Assembly: GCA_026394015.1 (NCBI GenBank)
Contig: JAPKZA010000273.1
Span: forward strand, 66,270 to 130,269
Direction of reading: 5' to 3'
Length of the DNA: 64,000 nt
Source of the DNA: Acidobacteriota bacterium
Lineage (GTDB): Bacteria; Acidobacteriota; Terriglobia; Bryobacterales; Bryobacteraceae
Shown in pieces: positions 1,314 through 39,300 of the stretch. The position numbers were made by a program, and so were the translations under genes. Position 1 is the stretch's first letter; each line of letters starts with the position of its first letter. The notes beneath the pieces are model-generated. The model made no database searches. It was not told the DNA's origin and was given only the letters and a program-made list of their open reading frames with translations.

Positions 1314-3641
1314 ATGAAGATTGCTGTCAATTTGCGCCAATACTACAAGGGCAAGATTGGTGGCATGGAGAACTACCTTCGCAATGTATTGCGAGGTCTC
1401 AGTCACCACCAATTGTTGATCTGGGTCCATGAAGAAGAAGTCGAACACGTCCGCGAGTTCGCACCCACCGCCGAAATCGTAGGGATCGCTCACGAAAGCG
1501 GCCTGCAGACAATAGAAGCCGGAGTCAAGACAGGCGGTTTCGACCTGTTCTTCTGTCCTTTGCTCGTCCTCGAGCCGCTCGTGGTTTCTCAGCCCTCCGC
1601 TGTCATGATGCCGGATGTGCAGCATGAGTTCTTCCCGGAGTTCTTCGACGCCAACGTCCTGCAATGGCGGAGGCAAACGTATGGGCCGACCGCCCTAAAC
1701 AGCGATATTATTTTCACGCTCAGTGAGCACGCCAAATCGACGATCGTCGAACGGTTCCGCATCGCGCCGGAAAAGATTAGGGTAATCCATCTCGACGCCG
1801 ACGCCGAGTTCAAGCAGCCGCTGCCAAGCGCTCCGACCGCGGCGTGGAAGGCCTTGAACCTGCCGGAGAAGTATTTCTTTTTCCCGGCCAACTTCTGGCC
1901 GCACAAAAACCATGCCAACGTGCTGCAGGCGTTGCGGCATGCCATTGATTCCGGCATGAAGGACGTTCAATTGGTCCTGAGCGGATCACCTGCCGAGTTC
2001 GGTCCTGTCGAAAAGGAGATCGCCCGACTCGGTCTGAAGGGCTCCGTTCGCATGATCGGCTACGTGGACAAGAAATTGATTCCGGAAATCTACCAGCACG
2101 CGCTGGCCCTTGTCTTCGCGACCAAGTTCGAAGGTTTCGGGATCCCCCTGTTGGAGGCCTTCTACTGTAATACGCCGGCCATTACGTCCCACTCCGGGAG
2201 TTGCGTCGAAGTGGCCGGAGACGCCGCAATATCGGTTGATCCACTGGATCCGCCCGATATTGCCCGGGGGATGCGCCGGATCTACGAAGATGCGGCACTG
2301 CGGCAGGATCTGATCGCCAAGGGCCGGGAACGGCTAGCGCTTTTTTCCTGGAAGCGCGCGATTGAGTTGACCGAGGAGTCGTTTAGCCACATCACGAGTC
2401 CCGCCTATTCCAAGCCTTCCAGAATCACCGTCGAGTCCTGGCCCGTGATCGGTATCGTTACCCCCACCTACAACATGGCGCACTTTCTGGAAGAGACAAT
2501 CCAGAGCGTCCTGACGCAGGACTATCCCCATGTCGACTACGTCGTGATGGATGCGGGTTCAAAGGACGGATCCGTCGAGATTCTCCAAAAGTATGGCGAC
2601 CGTTTGCGCTGGTGCTCAGAGAAAGACCGCGGCCAAGCCGACGCCGTCAACAAGGGCTACCACGCGACGACCGGAGAGATCTTTACGTTCCTCAATTCGG
2701 ACGACACGTTTCTGCCAGGCGCGCTGAGCACGATGGCGAAACACTTTAGAGCCAATCCTGGGGTCGGCATGATCTACGGTGAGGCGTACCACGTTAAGCT
2801 CGACGGCGAAATCATTGCCCCGTACCCGACGCAGGCTTTCGATCTCCGCACCCTCAACAACCAGTGCTATATCTGCCAACCAGCGGCGTTCATGCTTCGG
2901 GAGGCGTTTCGCAACACCGGGATGATGAACGTGACGATGCACTTTGCCCTCGATTACGAACTTTGGATTCGTATCGCAAAACAATATGGTGTCGTGAAGG
3001 TAGACGATTTCCTCGCCACCAGCCGGATGCACATGGACAACAAGACCCTGTCCAAACGCAGGCTGGTCTACCAGGAAATCATCAGTACGGTTAAAACGCA
3101 GTTTCAATACGCGCCCTACGAGTGGGTCAACGGCTATGCCTGCTACCTGCTCGACAAAAAAGACCAGTACTTTGATCGATCCAAGCCGACCCTTTCCTCC
3201 TACGCGCTCAGTCTTGCCTTGGGGCTGTATCACAACCCCGGCCAACGAAAGCGGTACTTCGCCGAGTGGCAAGAGATGACTGGGTTTGGGAAAAAATTTA
3301 CGGGGAGATGGGAAGACGGCTGGATCTCCGCGGTTTGGCAATCGGAGCAATCCATTCCCCCCGAAACAACGAGTGTCGCGGTGTCGGGCAAGCACTGGGC
3401 GCCCATCGGGCCAATTGCGCTCACCATCAAGCTGGAAGGCAAAGTAGTGCACCGCCAGGAACTGTCCTCTTCCGGGGACTACGCCTTTGTCGCTGCGGTT
3501 CCTCCTGAGCTATCCGGCAAGGTTTGCAGAATGAGCTTCGAGACCAGCCGTACCTGGCGCCCCAAGGCCAACGGCGACTATCGGCAACTTGGCTGTGTGG
3601 TTGATACGGTCCAGTTCCAAACGACGGGATCGAAGGTGTGA
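1314..3641 (+). CDS. Bifunctional glycosyltransferase: N-terminal GT4-like domain fused to C-terminal GT2 domain
   Basis: ATG at 1314 (MKIAVNLRQYYKGKIGGMENYL); GT4-type FEGFGIPLLEAFYCNTPAITS; GT2-type IGIVTPTYNMAHFLEETIQSVLTQDYP...NSDDTFLPGA. Confidence 0.85.
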   Translation: MKIAVNLRQYYKGKIGGMENYLRNVLRGLSHHQLLIWVHEEEVEHVREFAPTAEIVGIAHESGLQTIEAGVKTGGFDLFFCPLLVLEPLVVSQPSAVMMPDVQHEFFPEFFDANVLQWRRQTYGPTALNSDIIFTLSEHAKSTIVERFRIAPEKIRVIHLDADAEFKQPLPSAPTAAWKALNLPEKYFFFPANFWPHKNHANVLQALRHAIDSGMKDVQLVLSGSPAEFGPVEKEIARLGLKGSVRMIGYVDKKLIPEIYQHALALVFATKFEGFGIPLLEAFYCNTPAITSHSGSCVEVAGDAAISVDPLDPPDIARGMRRIYEDAALRQDLIAKGRERLALFSWKRAIELTEESFSHITSPAYSKPSRITVESWPVIGIVTPTYNMAHFLEETIQSVLTQDYPHVDYVVMDAGSKDGSVEILQKYGDRLRWCSEKDRGQADAVNKGYHATTGEIFTFLNSDDTFLPGALSTMAKHFRANPGVGMIYGEAYHVKLDGEIIAPYPTQAFDLRTLNNQCYICQPAAFMLREAFRNTGMMNVTMHFALDYELWIRIAKQYGVVKVDDFLATSRMHMDNKTLSKRRLVYQEIISTVKTQFQYAPYEWVNGYACYLLDKKDQYFDRSKPTLSSYALSLALGLYHNPGQRKRYFAEWQEMTGFGKKFTGRWEDGWISAVWQSEQSIPPETTSVAVSGKHWAPIGPIALTIKLEGKVVHRQELSSSGDYAFVAAVPPELSGKVCRMSFETSRTWRPKANGDYRQLGCVVDTVQFQTTGSKV

Positions 3642-4807
3642 GCAAACCTCTCGTTACCATCGTAACGCCGTCCTTCAACCAGGGTCATTTCATTCGAGCG
3701 ACGATTGAAAGCGTTTTGAGCCAGGACTATCCGAACGTCGAGTACGTGATCATGGATGGCGGCTCGACGGACAGCACCGCGGCCGTGGCGAGCGAATATA
3801 GCAGTCGCTTAACCTTCATCTCGGAAAAAGATCGAGGCCAGACACACGCCATCAATAAGGGTTTCCAGGCCGCGAAAGGAAGCATTGTGGCCTGGTTGAA
3901 CTCGGATGACGTTTACCTGCCGGGCGCGATCAGCAAGGGTGTCGCCGGCTGTGAAGCCAATCCCCGAGTCGGGGCAATTTACGGCGAGGGCTTTCAGATT
4001 GACTACGACGGCAACGTTCGGCAGCAGTTTCCCTTCACTGAACCATTCAACCTTTGGAAGCTAACGTTCGTCTTGGACTACGTCTTGCAGCAGTCCGTTT
4101 TCTTTCGACGGGATTGCGTCGAAGCGGTCGGTTGGGCGGATGAGTCTCTTCATTTTGGAATGGACTGGGACCTTTTGGTCAAGCTCGGCAAGCGGTATGG
4201 TCTAGCCTACGTGCCCGAGACGTTTGGGTGCATCCGGGAGTATGAGGCCGCCAAGTCCTTCGCCGGCGGGCAGAAACGATTCCGTGAACTTGCCGCGCTT
4301 CTGGAGAAGCAAAGCGGGCAGAAGCGTCCGCCCGGTTGGTGGTTCTACGGACTGGACACCTATGACAAAGTTTGGTCCACCCGGATCCAGCGCTGCCTGC
4401 CTGGCCCGCTAGGGGCCTACGTCGCCAAGCGTTTTGTACACGTTTGCAGGGCCAAGATCGACGACGTCTACTTCCGATCCCAGGGTTTGTATGCCGATCA
4501 ATGGGTGTCACCCCGGCTCCACTGGATGCTGCCCGAGTATGCTCGCTCGGCTGTGATCCACGGCACTTTGCCCGGATGGGCAGTTCCGCTGCAGGATCAG
4601 GAACTCCGGATTTACGTCGACGGCCGACTGGCCGGGAAGGGGAGTCCGTCGTTCGGGGAATTTAGCATCCCGGTTCCCTTAACGCTAGGCCGCGCTTCCG
4701 TGCTGCGGATCGATGCGGAGAAGTATGTCGTACCCGAAGAACAAGGGCTGGGCCCCGACCGACGACGCCTGGCGTGGCAACTGCTCGACATCGAAGCCAT
4801 TGCGTAG
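3638..4807 (+). CDS. Glycosyltransferase family 2
   Basis: VTIVTPSFNQGHFIRATIESVLSQDYPNVEYVIMDGGSTD, LNSDDVYLPGA; GTG start overlapping upstream stop. Confidence 0.85.
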   Translation: MSKPLVTIVTPSFNQGHFIRATIESVLSQDYPNVEYVIMDGGSTDSTAAVASEYSSRLTFISEKDRGQTHAINKGFQAAKGSIVAWLNSDDVYLPGAISKGVAGCEANPRVGAIYGEGFQIDYDGNVRQQFPFTEPFNLWKLTFVLDYVLQQSVFFRRDCVEAVGWADESLHFGMDWDLLVKLGKRYGLAYVPETFGCIREYEAAKSFAGGQKRFRELAALLEKQSGQKRPPGWWFYGLDTYDKVWSTRIQRCLPGPLGAYVAKRFVHVCRAKIDDVYFRSQGLYADQWVSPRLHWMLPEYARSAVIHGTLPGWAVPLQDQELRIYVDGRLAGKGSPSFGEFSIPVPLTLGRASVLRIDAEKYVVPEEQGLGPDRRRLAWQLLDIEAIA

Positions 4808-34012: not shown

Positions 34013-34945
34013 CTAATCGAAGTTGTCCCCCGTGATCACGGCGTAAATTCGGTCCAAATCAGCCTGCGAGTAGTAGTCGATTTCGATCTTGCCTTTCCCG
34101 GGTGCTTTTTCCAGGATTCTCACTCGGGTTCCCAGCGCCCCTTCCAACTCCCCAATCGCGGCCTTCACGTTGGGGTCAATCGGCGTCGGCTCTTCCACCT
34201 TCTTCGGCTCGGCTGGCTTCATCAACTTCTGAGCCATCTGCTCCACTTGCCGCACCGAAAGCCCCTGCGCCGCGGCTTGGCTCGCCACCTCGCGTTGCAG
34301 TTCGTCCGAAGGCAGACCAACGATCGCCCGGGCATGTCCCATGGAAAGCCGACGTTCCGCCACCAGCAGTTGCACCTCGACCGGTAGCCGCAGCAGCCGC
34401 AGCATGTTCGTGATCGTCGTCCGATCCTTACCGGTTCGCTTGCCAATCTCTTCGTGGCTCAGGCCAAGGTCGTTCGCCAGCCGTTCAAACGCCACCGCCA
34501 TTTCAATCGGGTTCAGATCCTCGCGCTGAATGTTCTCAATCAGCGCCACTTCCAAAACCCGGTTGTCGTCGATGTCGGCCACCACCACCGGCACCTCTTT
34601 CAGGCCGGCCAGCCGGGACGCCCGCCACCGCCGCTCCCCCGCGATCAGGTGATACTTCTCCCCAATCTTCCGGACGATCAGCGGCTGGATGATTCCGTTC
34701 GCCTGAATCGATGCAGCCAACTCCTGTAGCCGCACGGTGTCGAACACCGTCCGCGGTTGGTTCGGATTCGGCTCAATCTGGTCGATCAGCAGCCTGGTAG
34801 TCGCCGCCGGCTCTGCTGCCGCGGCCGGGGTCGCCGAAACGGTTGGAGGCGCGGGAGCCGCCTGGGCCGCCGGTCGGGCCGGCAGTAGCGACGAAAGGCC
34901 TTTACCCAGCGCTCTGCGCGGATTGTTGTCTGGCGCGTTGGTCAT
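34013..34945 (-). CDS. parB: Chromosome partitioning protein ParB
   Basis: [82 protein letters not shown]. Start at MTNAPDNNP preferred. Confidence 0.95.
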
Positions 34946-35732
34946 TAGCGAGGATCTCCTGCGCAAGTTGGATGTAGCATTCAGCACCCTTGGAACGGAT
35001 GTCGTAAAGTAAAATCGGTTTGCCGTGGCTCGGCGCTTCCGCCAGCCGGACGCTTCGCGGAATCACGGTCTTGAAGACTTCGTCCTGGAAGAACTCTTTC
35101 AGATCCTGCGCCACCTGCCGGGTTAAATTCGTCCGGTCGTCGAACATGGTCAGCAGAATCCCCTCGGTCTTCAGGTTGTGTTGGAACGACTCTTTGATCC
35201 GCTCCACCGTGTCCATCAACTGAGAGATCCCTTCCAGCGCAAAGAATTCGCACTGAATCGGCACCAGCAGCGAATTGGATGCCACCAACGCATTCAGCGT
35301 CAAAAGATCGAGCGCCGGCGGACAGTCAATGAGAATGTAGTCGTATCGATCCTGGATCGATTCCAGAGCCGTCTTCAAGCAAAGCTCCCGATTCGGCCGA
35401 CTCACCAAATCGATATTGACCCCCACCAGGTTCCGATCCGCCGGCAACAGTTCCAGACCATCGCACTCGGTCGGTACAATTGCCTCGGCTGCCTCACGCT
35501 CTCCCAGCAACACGTGATACAGCGTCACATTGTTGTCCGGATCTTTCGCGATTCCGAGTCCCGTTGTCGAGTTCCCCTGCGGATCGGCATCCACCAGCAG
35601 GACTCGCAGCTCATTCGCAGCCAGAGAGGCCGCCAAATTAATAGCGGTGGTCGTCTTGCCAACTCCACCCTTCTGATTGGCTATTGCAATCGTTTTTGCC
35701 AATGGTTCTGGTTCCTCGACTAATCCTATCAT
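34902..35732 (-). CDS. parA: Chromosome partitioning ATPase ParA (Soj)
   Basis: [60 protein letters not shown]. Confidence 0.95.
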
Positions 35733-35766
35733 GGGTGGCCGGAAAGGCTTCTATCCTGGACTATCT

Positions 35767-35780
35767 GTTCCACGTGGAAA
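35767..35780. promoter_or_regulatory. parS-like site 1 (GTTCCACGTGGAAa, one mismatch)
   Basis: Matches the parS-type palindrome GTTCCACGTGGAAC at 13 of 14 bases; directly upstream of parA. Confidence 0.75.
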
Positions 35781-35822
35781 TATCTGCCACCACAGGCCTC
35801 GTCCACCCCCCCCCATCCACAC

Positions 35823-35836
35823 GTTCCACGTGGAAC
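35823..35836. promoter_or_regulatory. parS-like site 2
   Basis: Perfect palindrome GTTCCACGTGGAAC. Confidence 0.85.
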
Positions 35837-35930
35837 CCTGATTCATTCCTCACCCCCTTCGTTTGAATCGACCAGCGCCCGTCCCAAACACGGCCGCGGA
35901 CCCTCCCCTCGAACTCATCCCCCCTGCTAC

Positions 35931-35944
35931 GTTCCACGTGGAAC
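35931..35944. promoter_or_regulatory. parS-like site 3
   Basis: Perfect palindrome GTTCCACGTGGAAC. Confidence 0.85.
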
Positions 35945-36016
35945 ACCCCTTACACCTAGCCATCAACGGTCAAAGCCCAGCGCTTCTCTCCAGATCCCCC
36001 GTCCCTACCCAACCCC

Positions 36017-36030
36017 GTTCCACGTGGAAC
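36017..36030. promoter_or_regulatory. parS-like site 4
   Basis: Perfect palindrome GTTCCACGTGGAAC. Confidence 0.85.
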
Positions 36031-36284
36031 ATCCCACCACTCTACAAGAGGCAGATATCCAACACCGAAACGGCAGCCGGAGTAACCCGAGGTACCCTCG
36101 CCACCCGACTCTCCTCCCCCAGCAAATACACCCAGTACTTCATACGCGTCTCCGCCACCCCCAACAAGCCAACTACCACGCCCGAACGCTCCATCCACGT
36201 CGCCTATGCCACGTTCTCCCCCCCCCCAAAGGCCGAATTGTCCGCAAACTACCGCACCTCCAACCGCCCTTTCCCACCCACTCC

Positions 36285-36298
36285 GTTCCACGTGGAAC
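36285..36298. promoter_or_regulatory. parS-like site 5
   Basis: Perfect palindrome GTTCCACGTGGAAC. Confidence 0.85.
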
Positions 36299-36612
36299 AC
36301 CCTCCGCTCAACCAAAGCTACATATCCAACACCGAAACCGCCGCCGGAGTCAACCCAAGTATCCGCGACGCCTCACCCTTCGTCACCGGCCTCAACCGCC
36401 GAAACTTGTCCACCATCTCCCGCGACAACCCCGGAATCCCACCAAAGTCCAACTCCACGAGAATTGAACGAGCCTCCGACGCTTGCAACCCAACCACCTG
36501 CCGCCCTCCCGTCGCAAGTACCCGCTGTACTTCAAATGGATCTCCACCACCCCCCAAAGTCCAAAACGCCCAGAAAGTTCCGCACCGCCAGCCGCCGTCC
36601 CCCACCCACCCC

Positions 36613-36626
36613 GTTCCACGTGGAAC
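36613..36626. promoter_or_regulatory. parS-like site 6
   Basis: Perfect palindrome GTTCCACGTGGAAC. Confidence 0.85.
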
Positions 36627-36971
36627 ACCCCACCGCTTTACGAAAGGCAGATATCCAACACCGAAGCCGCCGCCGGAGTCACCCCAGGTATCCGCGACGC
36701 CCACCGGCCTCACCCGCCGAAACTTCTCCACCATCTCCCGCGACAACCCAGGAATCCGACCATAATCCTACTCCACCGGAATCGAGCGCGCCTCCGACGC
36801 CTGCAACCGCGCCACCTGCCGCTCCTCCTGTCGCGAATACCCGCTGTACTTCAAATGCGTCTCCACCGCCCAGAACGCATCACCCACCTCGCTAATGCTG
36901 GATCCGCCGCCCCCCAAGGCCGAAATGCCCAGAAAGTGCCGCACCGCCAGCCACCGTCCCCCACCCACCCC

Positions 36972-36985
36972 GTTCCACGTGGAAC
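36972..36985. promoter_or_regulatory. parS-like site 7
   Basis: Perfect palindrome GTTCCACGTGGAAC. Confidence 0.85.
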
Positions 36986-37362
36986 ACCCCACCACTCTAC
37001 GAAAGGTAAATATCCAACACCGAAACCGCCGCCGGAGTCACCCCAGGGATCCGCGACGCCTGAACCACCGTCACCGGCCTCACCGGCCGAAACTTGTCCA
37101 CCATCTCCCGCGACAACCCCGGAATCCGACCATAATCCAACCCCACCGGAATCGAACGAGCCTCCGACCCCTACAAACGCGCCACCTGACGCTCCTCCTA
37201 ACGCAAATACCCGCTGTACTTCAAATGCGTCTCCACCGCCCCCAGCAACCCAATCACCGCCCCCAAACTCTTCGCCCACGTCGCCAATGCCTGATCACGC
37301 GCCGCCCAAGGCCGACAGGCCCCGAAACCGCCGCACCGCCAGCCACCGTCCCCACCCACCCC

Positions 37363-37376
37363 GTTCCACGTGGAAC
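37363..37376. promoter_or_regulatory. parS-like site 8
   Basis: Perfect palindrome GTTCCACGTGGAAC, immediately downstream of the mnmG stop. Confidence 0.85.
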
Positions 37377-37387
37377 ACCCCACCGCT

Positions 37388-39250
37388 CTACGAAAGGTAG
37401 ATATCCAGCACCGAAACCGCCGCCGGAGTCACCCCAGGTATCCGCGACGCCTGCCCCAACGTCACCGGCCTCACCCGCCGAAACTTGTCCACCATCTCCC
37501 GCGATAACCCCGGAATCCGACCATAATCCAACTCCACCGGAATCGAACGAGCCTCCGAAGCCTGCAACCGCGCCACCTGACGCTCCTCCTGACGCAAATA
37601 CCCGCTGTACTTCAAATGCGTCTCCACCGCTCCCAGTAACCCGTGCTCCGGCTCCCCCACCTGCGACTCAATCCACGGACGCAACAGCCCAATCACCGCC
37701 TCCGGACGCTTCAACCACGTCGCCAAGGTCGGATTCTCCGTCCCACAAAACGAAACATCCGGAAATTGCCGCGCCGTCAACCGCGTCCCCTCCAACAAAG
37801 GCAACAACGTCGCAAACTGCCCCTGCTTCCGCTCAAATCGCTCCCAACGGTCGTTACCCACCAATCCAAGCGCCCGACCACCCGGCGTCAACCGCGAATC
37901 CGCATTGTCAATCCGCAAATGCAACCGAAACTCCGCCCGCGACGTAAACATCCGATACGGCTCATCCACTCCCTTGCTAATCAAATCATCAATCAAAATC
38001 CCGATATACCCCTCCGTCCGACCCACCACAAACGCCTCCAACCCGCCCACACTCCGCGCCGCATTGATCCCCGCAATCAACCCCTGCGCCGCCGCCTCCT
38101 CATATCCCGACGTCCCATTAATCTGCCCCGCCAAAAACAAACCCGCAATAGTCTTACACTCCAACCCATGATTCAACTCCCGAGCGTCAATCGCGTCATA
38201 CTCAATCGCGTACCCCGGCCGAATCATCTCCGCGTCCTCCAACCCCGGCACCGAAGCCAACATCGCCACCTGCACATCCACCGGCATCGACGTCGACATC
38301 CCGTTCACATACACCTCGTACGTGTCCAATCCCTCCGGCTCCAAAAACAACTGGTGCCGCTCCCGATCTGGAAACTTCACCACCTTGTCTTCAATCGACG
38401 GACAATACCGCGGCCCAATCCCCTCAATCGCTCCCGAATACAGCGGCGACCGATGAATGTTCTCCCGCACCACCGCGTGCGTCGCCTCCGACGTGTACGC
38501 GATGTGACACCGAATCTGCTCCCGCTCAATCTTCCCCGTCAAAAACGAAAACGGCGTCGGCACCGCATCCCCCTCCTGCGGCTCAAATCGCGACCAATCC
38601 AAACTCCGCCCGTCCAACCGCGGCGGCGTCCCCGTCTTCAGCCGCGTCCACGCCATCCCCAAATTCCGCAACTGCTGCCCCAACAAGTTCGACGGAGCCT
38701 CCCCGTTCCGCCCGCAATCCGTCTTCGCCTCCCCGACATGCGCCAACCCATTCAAAAACGTCCCCGTCGTCACCACCACCGCCCCGCTCAACGCCGTCCG
38801 ACCATCCCGCAAACGAACCCCTCGCACCCGCCGCCGAGCCCCATCGGTCTCCAATACCAACTCCGCCACCTCCGCCTGCAAAAAATGCACGTTCGGCTCC
38901 CGCTCCAATACCTCCCGCATCTTAATCCGATACTGCTTCTTATCGCACTGCGCCCGCGGCGACCACACCGCAGGACCCCGACTCGTATTCAACAACCGAA
39001 ATTGAATCCCCACCGCATCCGCCACCTCCCCCATCACCCCACCCAACGCATCAATCTCCCTCACCAAATGGCCTTTCGCAATGCCCCCCACCGCCGGATT
39101 GCACGATAACTGCGCAATCAAGTCAATGTTCATCGCCACCATCGCTGTCCGCAACCCCAGTCGCGCACTCGCCCGCGCCGCCTCACAACCCGCATGACCG
39201 GCCCCAATCACGATCACATCATATTGCAAAGGCTTTAAAACGATAGGCAT
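37388..39250 (-). CDS. mnmG: tRNA uridine-5-carboxymethylaminomethyl modification enzyme MnmG/GidA
   Basis: [65 protein letters not shown]; intact C-terminus. ATG at 39250 preferred; GTG at 39265 possible. Confidence 0.95.
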
Positions 39251-39300
39251 AAGGGAAAACGGCACCGCCTGTTCTATTCTAACTTGAGGAGCATCCCCCT

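Follow-up and report, generated by a model that had tools for sequence, protein, structure and literature searches.

Clusters of five to more than 20 parS sites are established (PMC3899335, PMC7333895). Two described systems come closest to the locus considered here: the chromosome of Myxococcus xanthus, in which 22 parS with the consensus TGTTCCACGTGGAACG lie within 3 kb (PMC3899335), and the sopC locus (parS F) of the F plasmid, in which a 43-bp sequence occurs twelve times in tandem and ParB F binds ten 16-bp inverted repeats (PMC6238139). A 2020 review counted among the open questions the reasons for the wide variation in parS number and for the grouping of sites into clusters (PMC7333895).

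Here, we examined a parS cluster located between mnmG (gidA) and parA in a 64-kb window (i.e., the whole stretch of DNA that was analysed, 64,000 nucleotides); the genome containing it, that of an uncultured member of the Acidobacteriota, is hereafter called G000. According to our reconstruction, this locus is quite probably a chromosomal ParB-loading centromere, in which parS was multiplied from about two to eight sites by tandem duplication of the mnmG tail, with a founder history, a refreshing of the units at the mnmG end and a selection bearing on parS only.

Sites, intervals and neighbouring genes

The interval between mnmG and parA contains eight parS-type palindromes (35767-37376), seven of which are exact copies of GTTCCACGTGGAAC while one has a single mismatch, as the initial annotation of this DNA had stated. 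Eight sites with at most two mismatches were observed against 0.23 expected by shuffling, and shuffles of the array itself yielded essentially zero such sites. Across the 7.9-Mb assembly of G000 (574 contigs), all seven exact occurrences of GTTCCACGTGGAAC fall within the parA-mnmG cluster. The palindromes are of the 14-16 bp type of chromosomal ParABS centromeres (GTTYCACGTGRAAC type) and, with eight of them in 1.6 kb, the locus ranks among the large clusters of Myxococcus type (more than about seven TGTTCCACGTGGAACG-type sites, within a few kb upstream of parA). The features of the locus, in window coordinates, are the following.

34013-34987, minus strand: parB (GTG start as listed, internal ATG possible; Pfam ParB_N 6.6e-34, HTH_ParB 7.8e-34, ParB_C 1.8e-9)
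34902-35732, minus strand: parA (Pfam AAA_31 1.1e-65, CbiA 2.3e-32)
35767-35780: parS site 1, parA-proximal, one mismatch (GTTCCACGTGGAAA), final base A
35781-35822: old3, inter-site DNA of no recognisable origin
35823-35836: parS site 2, exact
35837-35930: old2, inter-site DNA of no recognisable origin
35931-35944: parS site 3, exact
35945-36016, minus strand: old1, mostly unrecognisable relic; the ~20 nt adjoining site 4 correspond to the start of a unit (repeat family from 35996)
36017-36030: parS site 4, exact
36031-36284, minus strand: U4, relic of the mnmG tail lacking the shared 48 nt plus another 126 nt; tail 21.6% diverged
36285-36298: parS site 5, exact
36299-36612, minus strand: U3, mnmG-tail relic with a 109-nt deletion spanning the 48-nt one, frameshifted; tail 14.4% diverged
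36613-36626: parS site 6, exact
36627-36971, minus strand: U2, mnmG-tail relic with 70-nt and 11-nt deletions and an in-frame TAG; tail 6.5% diverged
36972-36985: parS site 7, exact
36986-37362, minus strand: U1, relic of the mnmG tail with two TAG codons, also lacking the shared 48 nt; tail 6.4% and upstream part 33% diverged
37363-37376: parS site 8, exact, at the position of the congeners' parS just downstream of mnmG
37363-37801, minus strand: stretch from which the founder unit came (final ~411 nt of mnmG with the stop, then spacer and parS)
37388-39265, minus strand: mnmG (gidA), intact (Pfam GIDA 2.1e-163, SAM_GIDA_C 1.5e-21)
37643-37690, minus strand: 48 nt of mnmG absent, with identical endpoints, from U1, U4 and the unit of the related genome G077

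Four of the seven inter-site intervals (36031-37362) derive from the mnmG 3' end and carry stops, frameshifts and deletions. On the minus strand, the four intervals that end at sites 7, 6, 5 and 4 match the mnmG 3' end up to and past its stop codon, including a short spacer and parS. Local alignments to the mnmG 3' end (parS included) give 263/280 identical positions for 36972-37363, 250/264 for 36613-36972, 237/270 for 36285-36613 and 72/84 for 36017-36285, with scores (108-475) far above the maxima reached by shuffles (32-37). The three parA-side intervals (35781-36016) show no homology to mnmG in local alignments beyond parS and ~5-20 nt of flank, so that the claim that the mnmG tail recurs between successive sites stands for four intervals and falls for these three. 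A multiple alignment places the start of the unit at codon ~488 of mnmG, ~411 nt ahead of the stop; the source span given earlier (codons ~495-625) is corrected accordingly to ~411 nt plus stop, spacer and parS. The unit copies contain TAG codons and frameshifts, as well as deletions of one base and, private to single units, of 11, 70, 109 and 126 nt, which confirms that they are frameshifted and interrupted by stops. With four recognisable units bearing one parS each, the array has the organisation of a tandem-repeat centromere, i.e., one binding site per homologous unit. It is the only local tandem duplication found in the window, apart from a repeat at 268-768, where 147/112-bp tandem repeats probably lie within a coding sequence for a repetitive protein.

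The ParA, ParB, MnmG and PurD proteins encoded beside the array are all ordinary family members (Pfam), and the adjoining parA and parB genes, along with the mnmG neighbourhood, are those of a chromosomal ParABS centromere (Pfam). By sequence, the closest solved relative of the G000 ParB is 7bnk (4.6e-57), which we take to be the ParB of M. xanthus. This comparison identifies the G000 protein as a ParB of the Spo0J kind, its GKDR and MGHAR motifs aligning with GKER and MGHAR of 7bnk. When positions are mapped via this alignment, it appears to have parS-specificity residues of the R173/G201 type, following the parS-reading rule expressed in Caulobacter numbering (PMC7383237). On the plus strand, the region 20001-64000 of the window displays a very strong GC skew, of about -0.3 to -0.5, including across the opposite-strand purD.

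A single founder unit and its probable exchanges with mnmG

The 48-nt deletion has identical endpoints in U1, U4 and the unit of G077, while the larger deletions of U2 and U3 cover the same stretch. Because an exact deletion is shared, the units are not fresh independent copies: those of G000 and G077 descend from one founder, instead of having been copied anew from mnmG each time. The part of the units upstream of this deletion forms a clade of its own, apart from all mnmG genes (UFBoot 98), and its divergence from mnmG is ~30-33% in every unit of the window, including the unit adjoining mnmG. The model of a tandem duplication of the mnmG tail plus parS was therefore right as regards the amplification of a unit, but not as regards repeated fresh copying, given the shared 48-nt deletion.

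The tail part of the units behaves differently, its divergence from mnmG increasing from U1 to U4, i.e., towards parA (6.4, 6.5, 14.4 and 21.6%). Within U1, 34/102 positions differ from mnmG in the upstream part vs. 16/251 in the tail (Fisher 5e-10), whereas the mnmG genes of sister species, used as controls for the same two parts, differ by 10/105 vs. 24/251 (9.5 vs. 9.6%) and 8/105 vs. 20/251 (7.6 vs. 8.0%). Since a tree with all units in a separate clade survives the AU test on the short alignment of the tails (p = 0.16), our argument for recombination relies on this contrast in divergence and not on topology. The simplest account is that mnmG-proximal units exchange their tails with the gene, or arise there by unequal crossing-over, and then move towards parA while ageing. 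As a refinement, the apparent gradient of decay would combine the age of the units with the refreshing of their tails by recombination with mnmG. The description of the units as decaying copies thus holds inasmuch as tail decay rises towards parA, with the qualification that the gradient also reflects refreshing.

Since exchange between mnmG and the tail part appears to have taken place, one might regard the copies as a reserve for the repair of the mnmG 3' end by gene conversion. We consider this extremely improbable: the copies contain stops and frameshifts, and conversion would damage mnmG; moreover, the older units conserve only parS, and U3 and U4 persist despite their decayed tails.

In terms of steps, the last ~411 nt of mnmG and the parS past its stop would have been duplicated once towards parA in the common ancestor of G000 and G077. 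The founder unit would then have lost 48 nt and been amplified, presumably by unequal recombination. Since then, tail sequence would be exchanged time and again between the functional gene and the units closest to it, and stops, frameshifts and deletions would build up in the older units on the parA side, only the 14-bp parS of each unit being kept by selection.

parS sites and arrays in related genomes

The genus was represented by 19 genomes, the majority of which contain 1-3 parS, and most congeners are devoid of any mnmG-tail copy. In the compact congeners, mnmG is followed by 46-55 nt with two parS, then directly by parA, an arrangement that we regard as ancestral-like. Two sister genomes, whose MnmG proteins are 95% identical to that of G000, depart from this arrangement. 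G077 (an assembly 58% complete) has the same mnmG-tail unit as G000 downstream of mnmG, after which the contig ends inside the array. G070 also has parS-bearing tandem units between mnmG and parA, but without any mnmG-tail copy: its array is made of ~13 periods of a ~115-bp unit unrelated to mnmG, with at least two parS-like sites per period. It totals at least 11 exact parS and ~14 with 1-3 mismatches, i.e., many decayed sites, over two contigs that break inside the array. A unit of this 115-bp type was considered as the source of the unrecognisable parA-side intervals of G000 and rejected, alignment scores being within those of shuffles.

Several other observations were made on these loci. 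In G077 (L145, contig C294), 1986-2504 and 2491-2999 form a decayed 505-bp tandem duplication (83% identical) of the purD and mnmG 5' ends, without parS. In the same locus, the mnmG ORF next to the array (2821-4623) is cut short by a TAG within its conserved tail, whereas the tail of the first array unit is open; the TAG is either an assembly error or a real lesion. G070 (L163, contig C81) carries a 161-bp direct duplication (627-787 and 872-1032, 97% identical) on the parB side of the locus. In mnmG, G occupies 61-67% and C 7-8% of third codon positions in G000, G077 and G070, precisely the species with expanded arrays, vs. 16-52% G in other congeners. In G000, rsmG (gidB) is found at 14178-14678 of contig C389, i.e., on another contig than mnmG and parAB, while many members of the family have a mnmG-parA gap of ~600-700 nt, a size that would fit rsmG. 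A former presence of rsmG in the mnmG-parA interval of G000 was nonetheless rejected, since the gene has another location in the genome and since the closest two-site congeners have none in that interval.

At the level of the order, most genomes have about two parS, and at least six were found in 12 of 257. One of the rich genomes, G118 (another genus of the family, assembled in 4 contigs), has 11 exact and two one-mismatch parS within 1.3 kb (L192, contig C3, 2811-4120). This 13-site array is uninterrupted and, as in G000, lies between mnmG and parA, and a search for hidden units detected no homology between its intervals beyond parS and a few flanking bases; it is either fully decayed or was formed another way. 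In seven genomes (G091, G149, G154, G174, G223, G226 and G229), which make up most of the other rich genomes inspected, parS are scattered over many contigs, unlike compact arrays. Six of these (G149, G154, G174, G223, G226 and G229) have 8-55 exact scattered parS, often in groups of 2-6 that are ~20-50 bp apart in the case of G154. Such scattered many-site genomes are unusual with respect to the argument that the clustering of strong parS limits Smc collisions (PMC8357415).

MnmG-tail matches were searched for across the order (257 genomes, 227 with a match), which returned four in G000 and two in G077, as well as two each in G059 (where the gene is split across contigs), G123 and G183. In a sample of the phylum (396 genomes, of which 331 gave a match), tandem copies occurred in G000 alone, and G584 gave two matches. 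A few such double matches aside, tandem copies of the mnmG tail are seen only in G000 and G077.

Because G000 is a draft of 574 contigs, because tandem repeats are hard for short reads and because the contigs of G070 and G077 break in their arrays, one may wonder whether related strains were merged into a chimera here, or repeats misassembled. This is very unlikely. The G000 array is located inside a 181-kb contig, and its units differ by 6-22% and by private deletions, which means that they are not copied reads. Furthermore, G077, a separate assembly, has the unit with the identical 48-nt deletion, so that a one-off artefact, a concern of the initial annotation, is unlikely, while the 4-contig G118 has its uninterrupted array in the same place.

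Conservation and possible role of the sites

Given the tail divergence of each unit, the probability that all four parS of U1-U4 remained unchanged is 5.8e-4, and it drops to ~4e-10 once the two exact sites flanked by unrecognisable intervals are included, with 40% taken as their divergence. Both values are orders of magnitude only, since they assume independence and since recombination makes the parS of the youngest units more alike as well. Partly decayed relics of parS (2-4 mismatches) were searched for inside the G000 array and none was found. This pattern fits purifying selection on the 14-bp parS alone within the units. The parA-proximal site has one mismatch in G000 (GTTCCACGTGGAAA) and a different one in G070 (GTTCCACTTGGAAC), whereas congeners in which two or three sites lie close together have both end sites intact. 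This is what one would expect if each site became less necessary as others were added.

The main rival explanation is neutral growth, according to which the locus near mnmG duplicates easily and the parS copies are passengers, kept because a ParB site that has decayed or half works does harm, or for want of time, and not because more sites are better. The 505-bp duplication of G077, which is without parS, suggests a duplication-prone locus, and the second short duplication of G070 goes in the same direction, eight loci from other congeners being without any; besides, two or three sites are enough for most congeners. Yet, all eight G000 sites are intact or one base off while three intervals have become unrecognisable, and two related species have expanded parS on unrelated units, which fits selection on the sites better than pure drift. 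On balance, we hold purely neutral growth to be rather unlikely, keeping in mind that duplication and selection are compatible: both can be true, the former supplying units and the latter keeping sites.

The outcome of site multiplication under selection would be a single spot beside parAB at which ParB can nucleate on eight sites over 1.6 kb, compared with two over ~50 bp. ParB-CTP clamps would load at all eight, yielding a denser partition complex, and local duplication would add sites without dispersing them, so that SMC loading would not be spread to distant positions. In vitro, ParB condenses DNA with 7, 13 or 26 parS, and not with 1, 2 or 4 (PMC8299390); the change from two to eight sites spans this range, hence an effect that should be measurable. 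Conversely, eight sites may bring no benefit, because a single parS is often enough for segregation in other bacteria (PMC7333895). Both the binding of ParB at the eight sites and a benefit from their number are predictions. That the array is a way to multiply ParB-loading sites, as initially suggested, nevertheless appears to be the best reading, any advantage over neutral growth being something that we infer.

A regulatory role might also be proposed, in which ParB spread across the 1.6 kb would uncouple the transcription of parA-parB from mnmG and tune par autoregulation, segregation being secondary. The array does separate mnmG from parA, which are only 46-71 nt apart in the closest two-site congeners, and has parA and parB directly downstream. 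However, the dispersed expansions of other genera are not in front of parA, and ParB loading would follow either way; we deem this role unlikely as the primary one.

The array among known centromeres

The M. xanthus cluster resembles that of G000 in its identical 14-bp core, its tight grouping upstream of parA and a ParB of the same family (PMC3899335). It differs in lying ~4 kb from parA and, compared by description, in that no gene fragment is reported between its sites, nor is it called "tandem" (PMC3899335). With the same core repeated 22 times in 3 kb in that species, clustered parS near parAB/gidA were rightly presented as established (PMC3899335); the novelty lies not in the clustering of sites with the GTTCCACGTGGAAC core, which was already known, but in the origin of the cluster. 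In the literature searched, which mostly excludes subscription journals, no earlier description was found of a chromosomal parS array derived from the 3' end of a neighbouring gene or of a parS array born by tandem duplication.

Like the G000 array, sopC is a tandem-repeat centromere, but it is carried by a plasmid, its units are short and uniform, and no gene has been identified as their source; the units of G000 are long and decayed and come from a housekeeping gene. Moreover, sopC is of plasmid type Ia with its own 16-bp motif, while the G000 site is of the chromosomal parS type and its ParB of the Spo0J kind. The G000 array would therefore work like sopC without belonging to that class.

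Beyond bacteria, eukaryotic centromeric satellites grow by tandem duplication, have a protein-binding box per unit and are built of lineage-specific monomers. It is conceivable, although we advance it tentatively, that the parS arrays of this clade turn over like satellite DNA, through repeated tandem amplification of any DNA flanking parS (the mnmG tail in one lineage, the unrelated 115-bp unit in its sister), refreshing at one end from a functional gene and ageing until the origin becomes untraceable, as in G118. If so, many-site parS clusters elsewhere among bacteria would have a general mode of formation. The locus and its relatives represent three stages: the two-site congeners, the young and still traceable array of G000 and G077, and the older arrays of G070 and G118. 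The G000 array offers one concrete way for a bacterial centromere to grow, its gene copies having decayed around intact parS. Compared with eukaryotic satellites, it is far smaller and is devoid of epigenetic definition, relying instead on sequence-specific nucleation by ParB.
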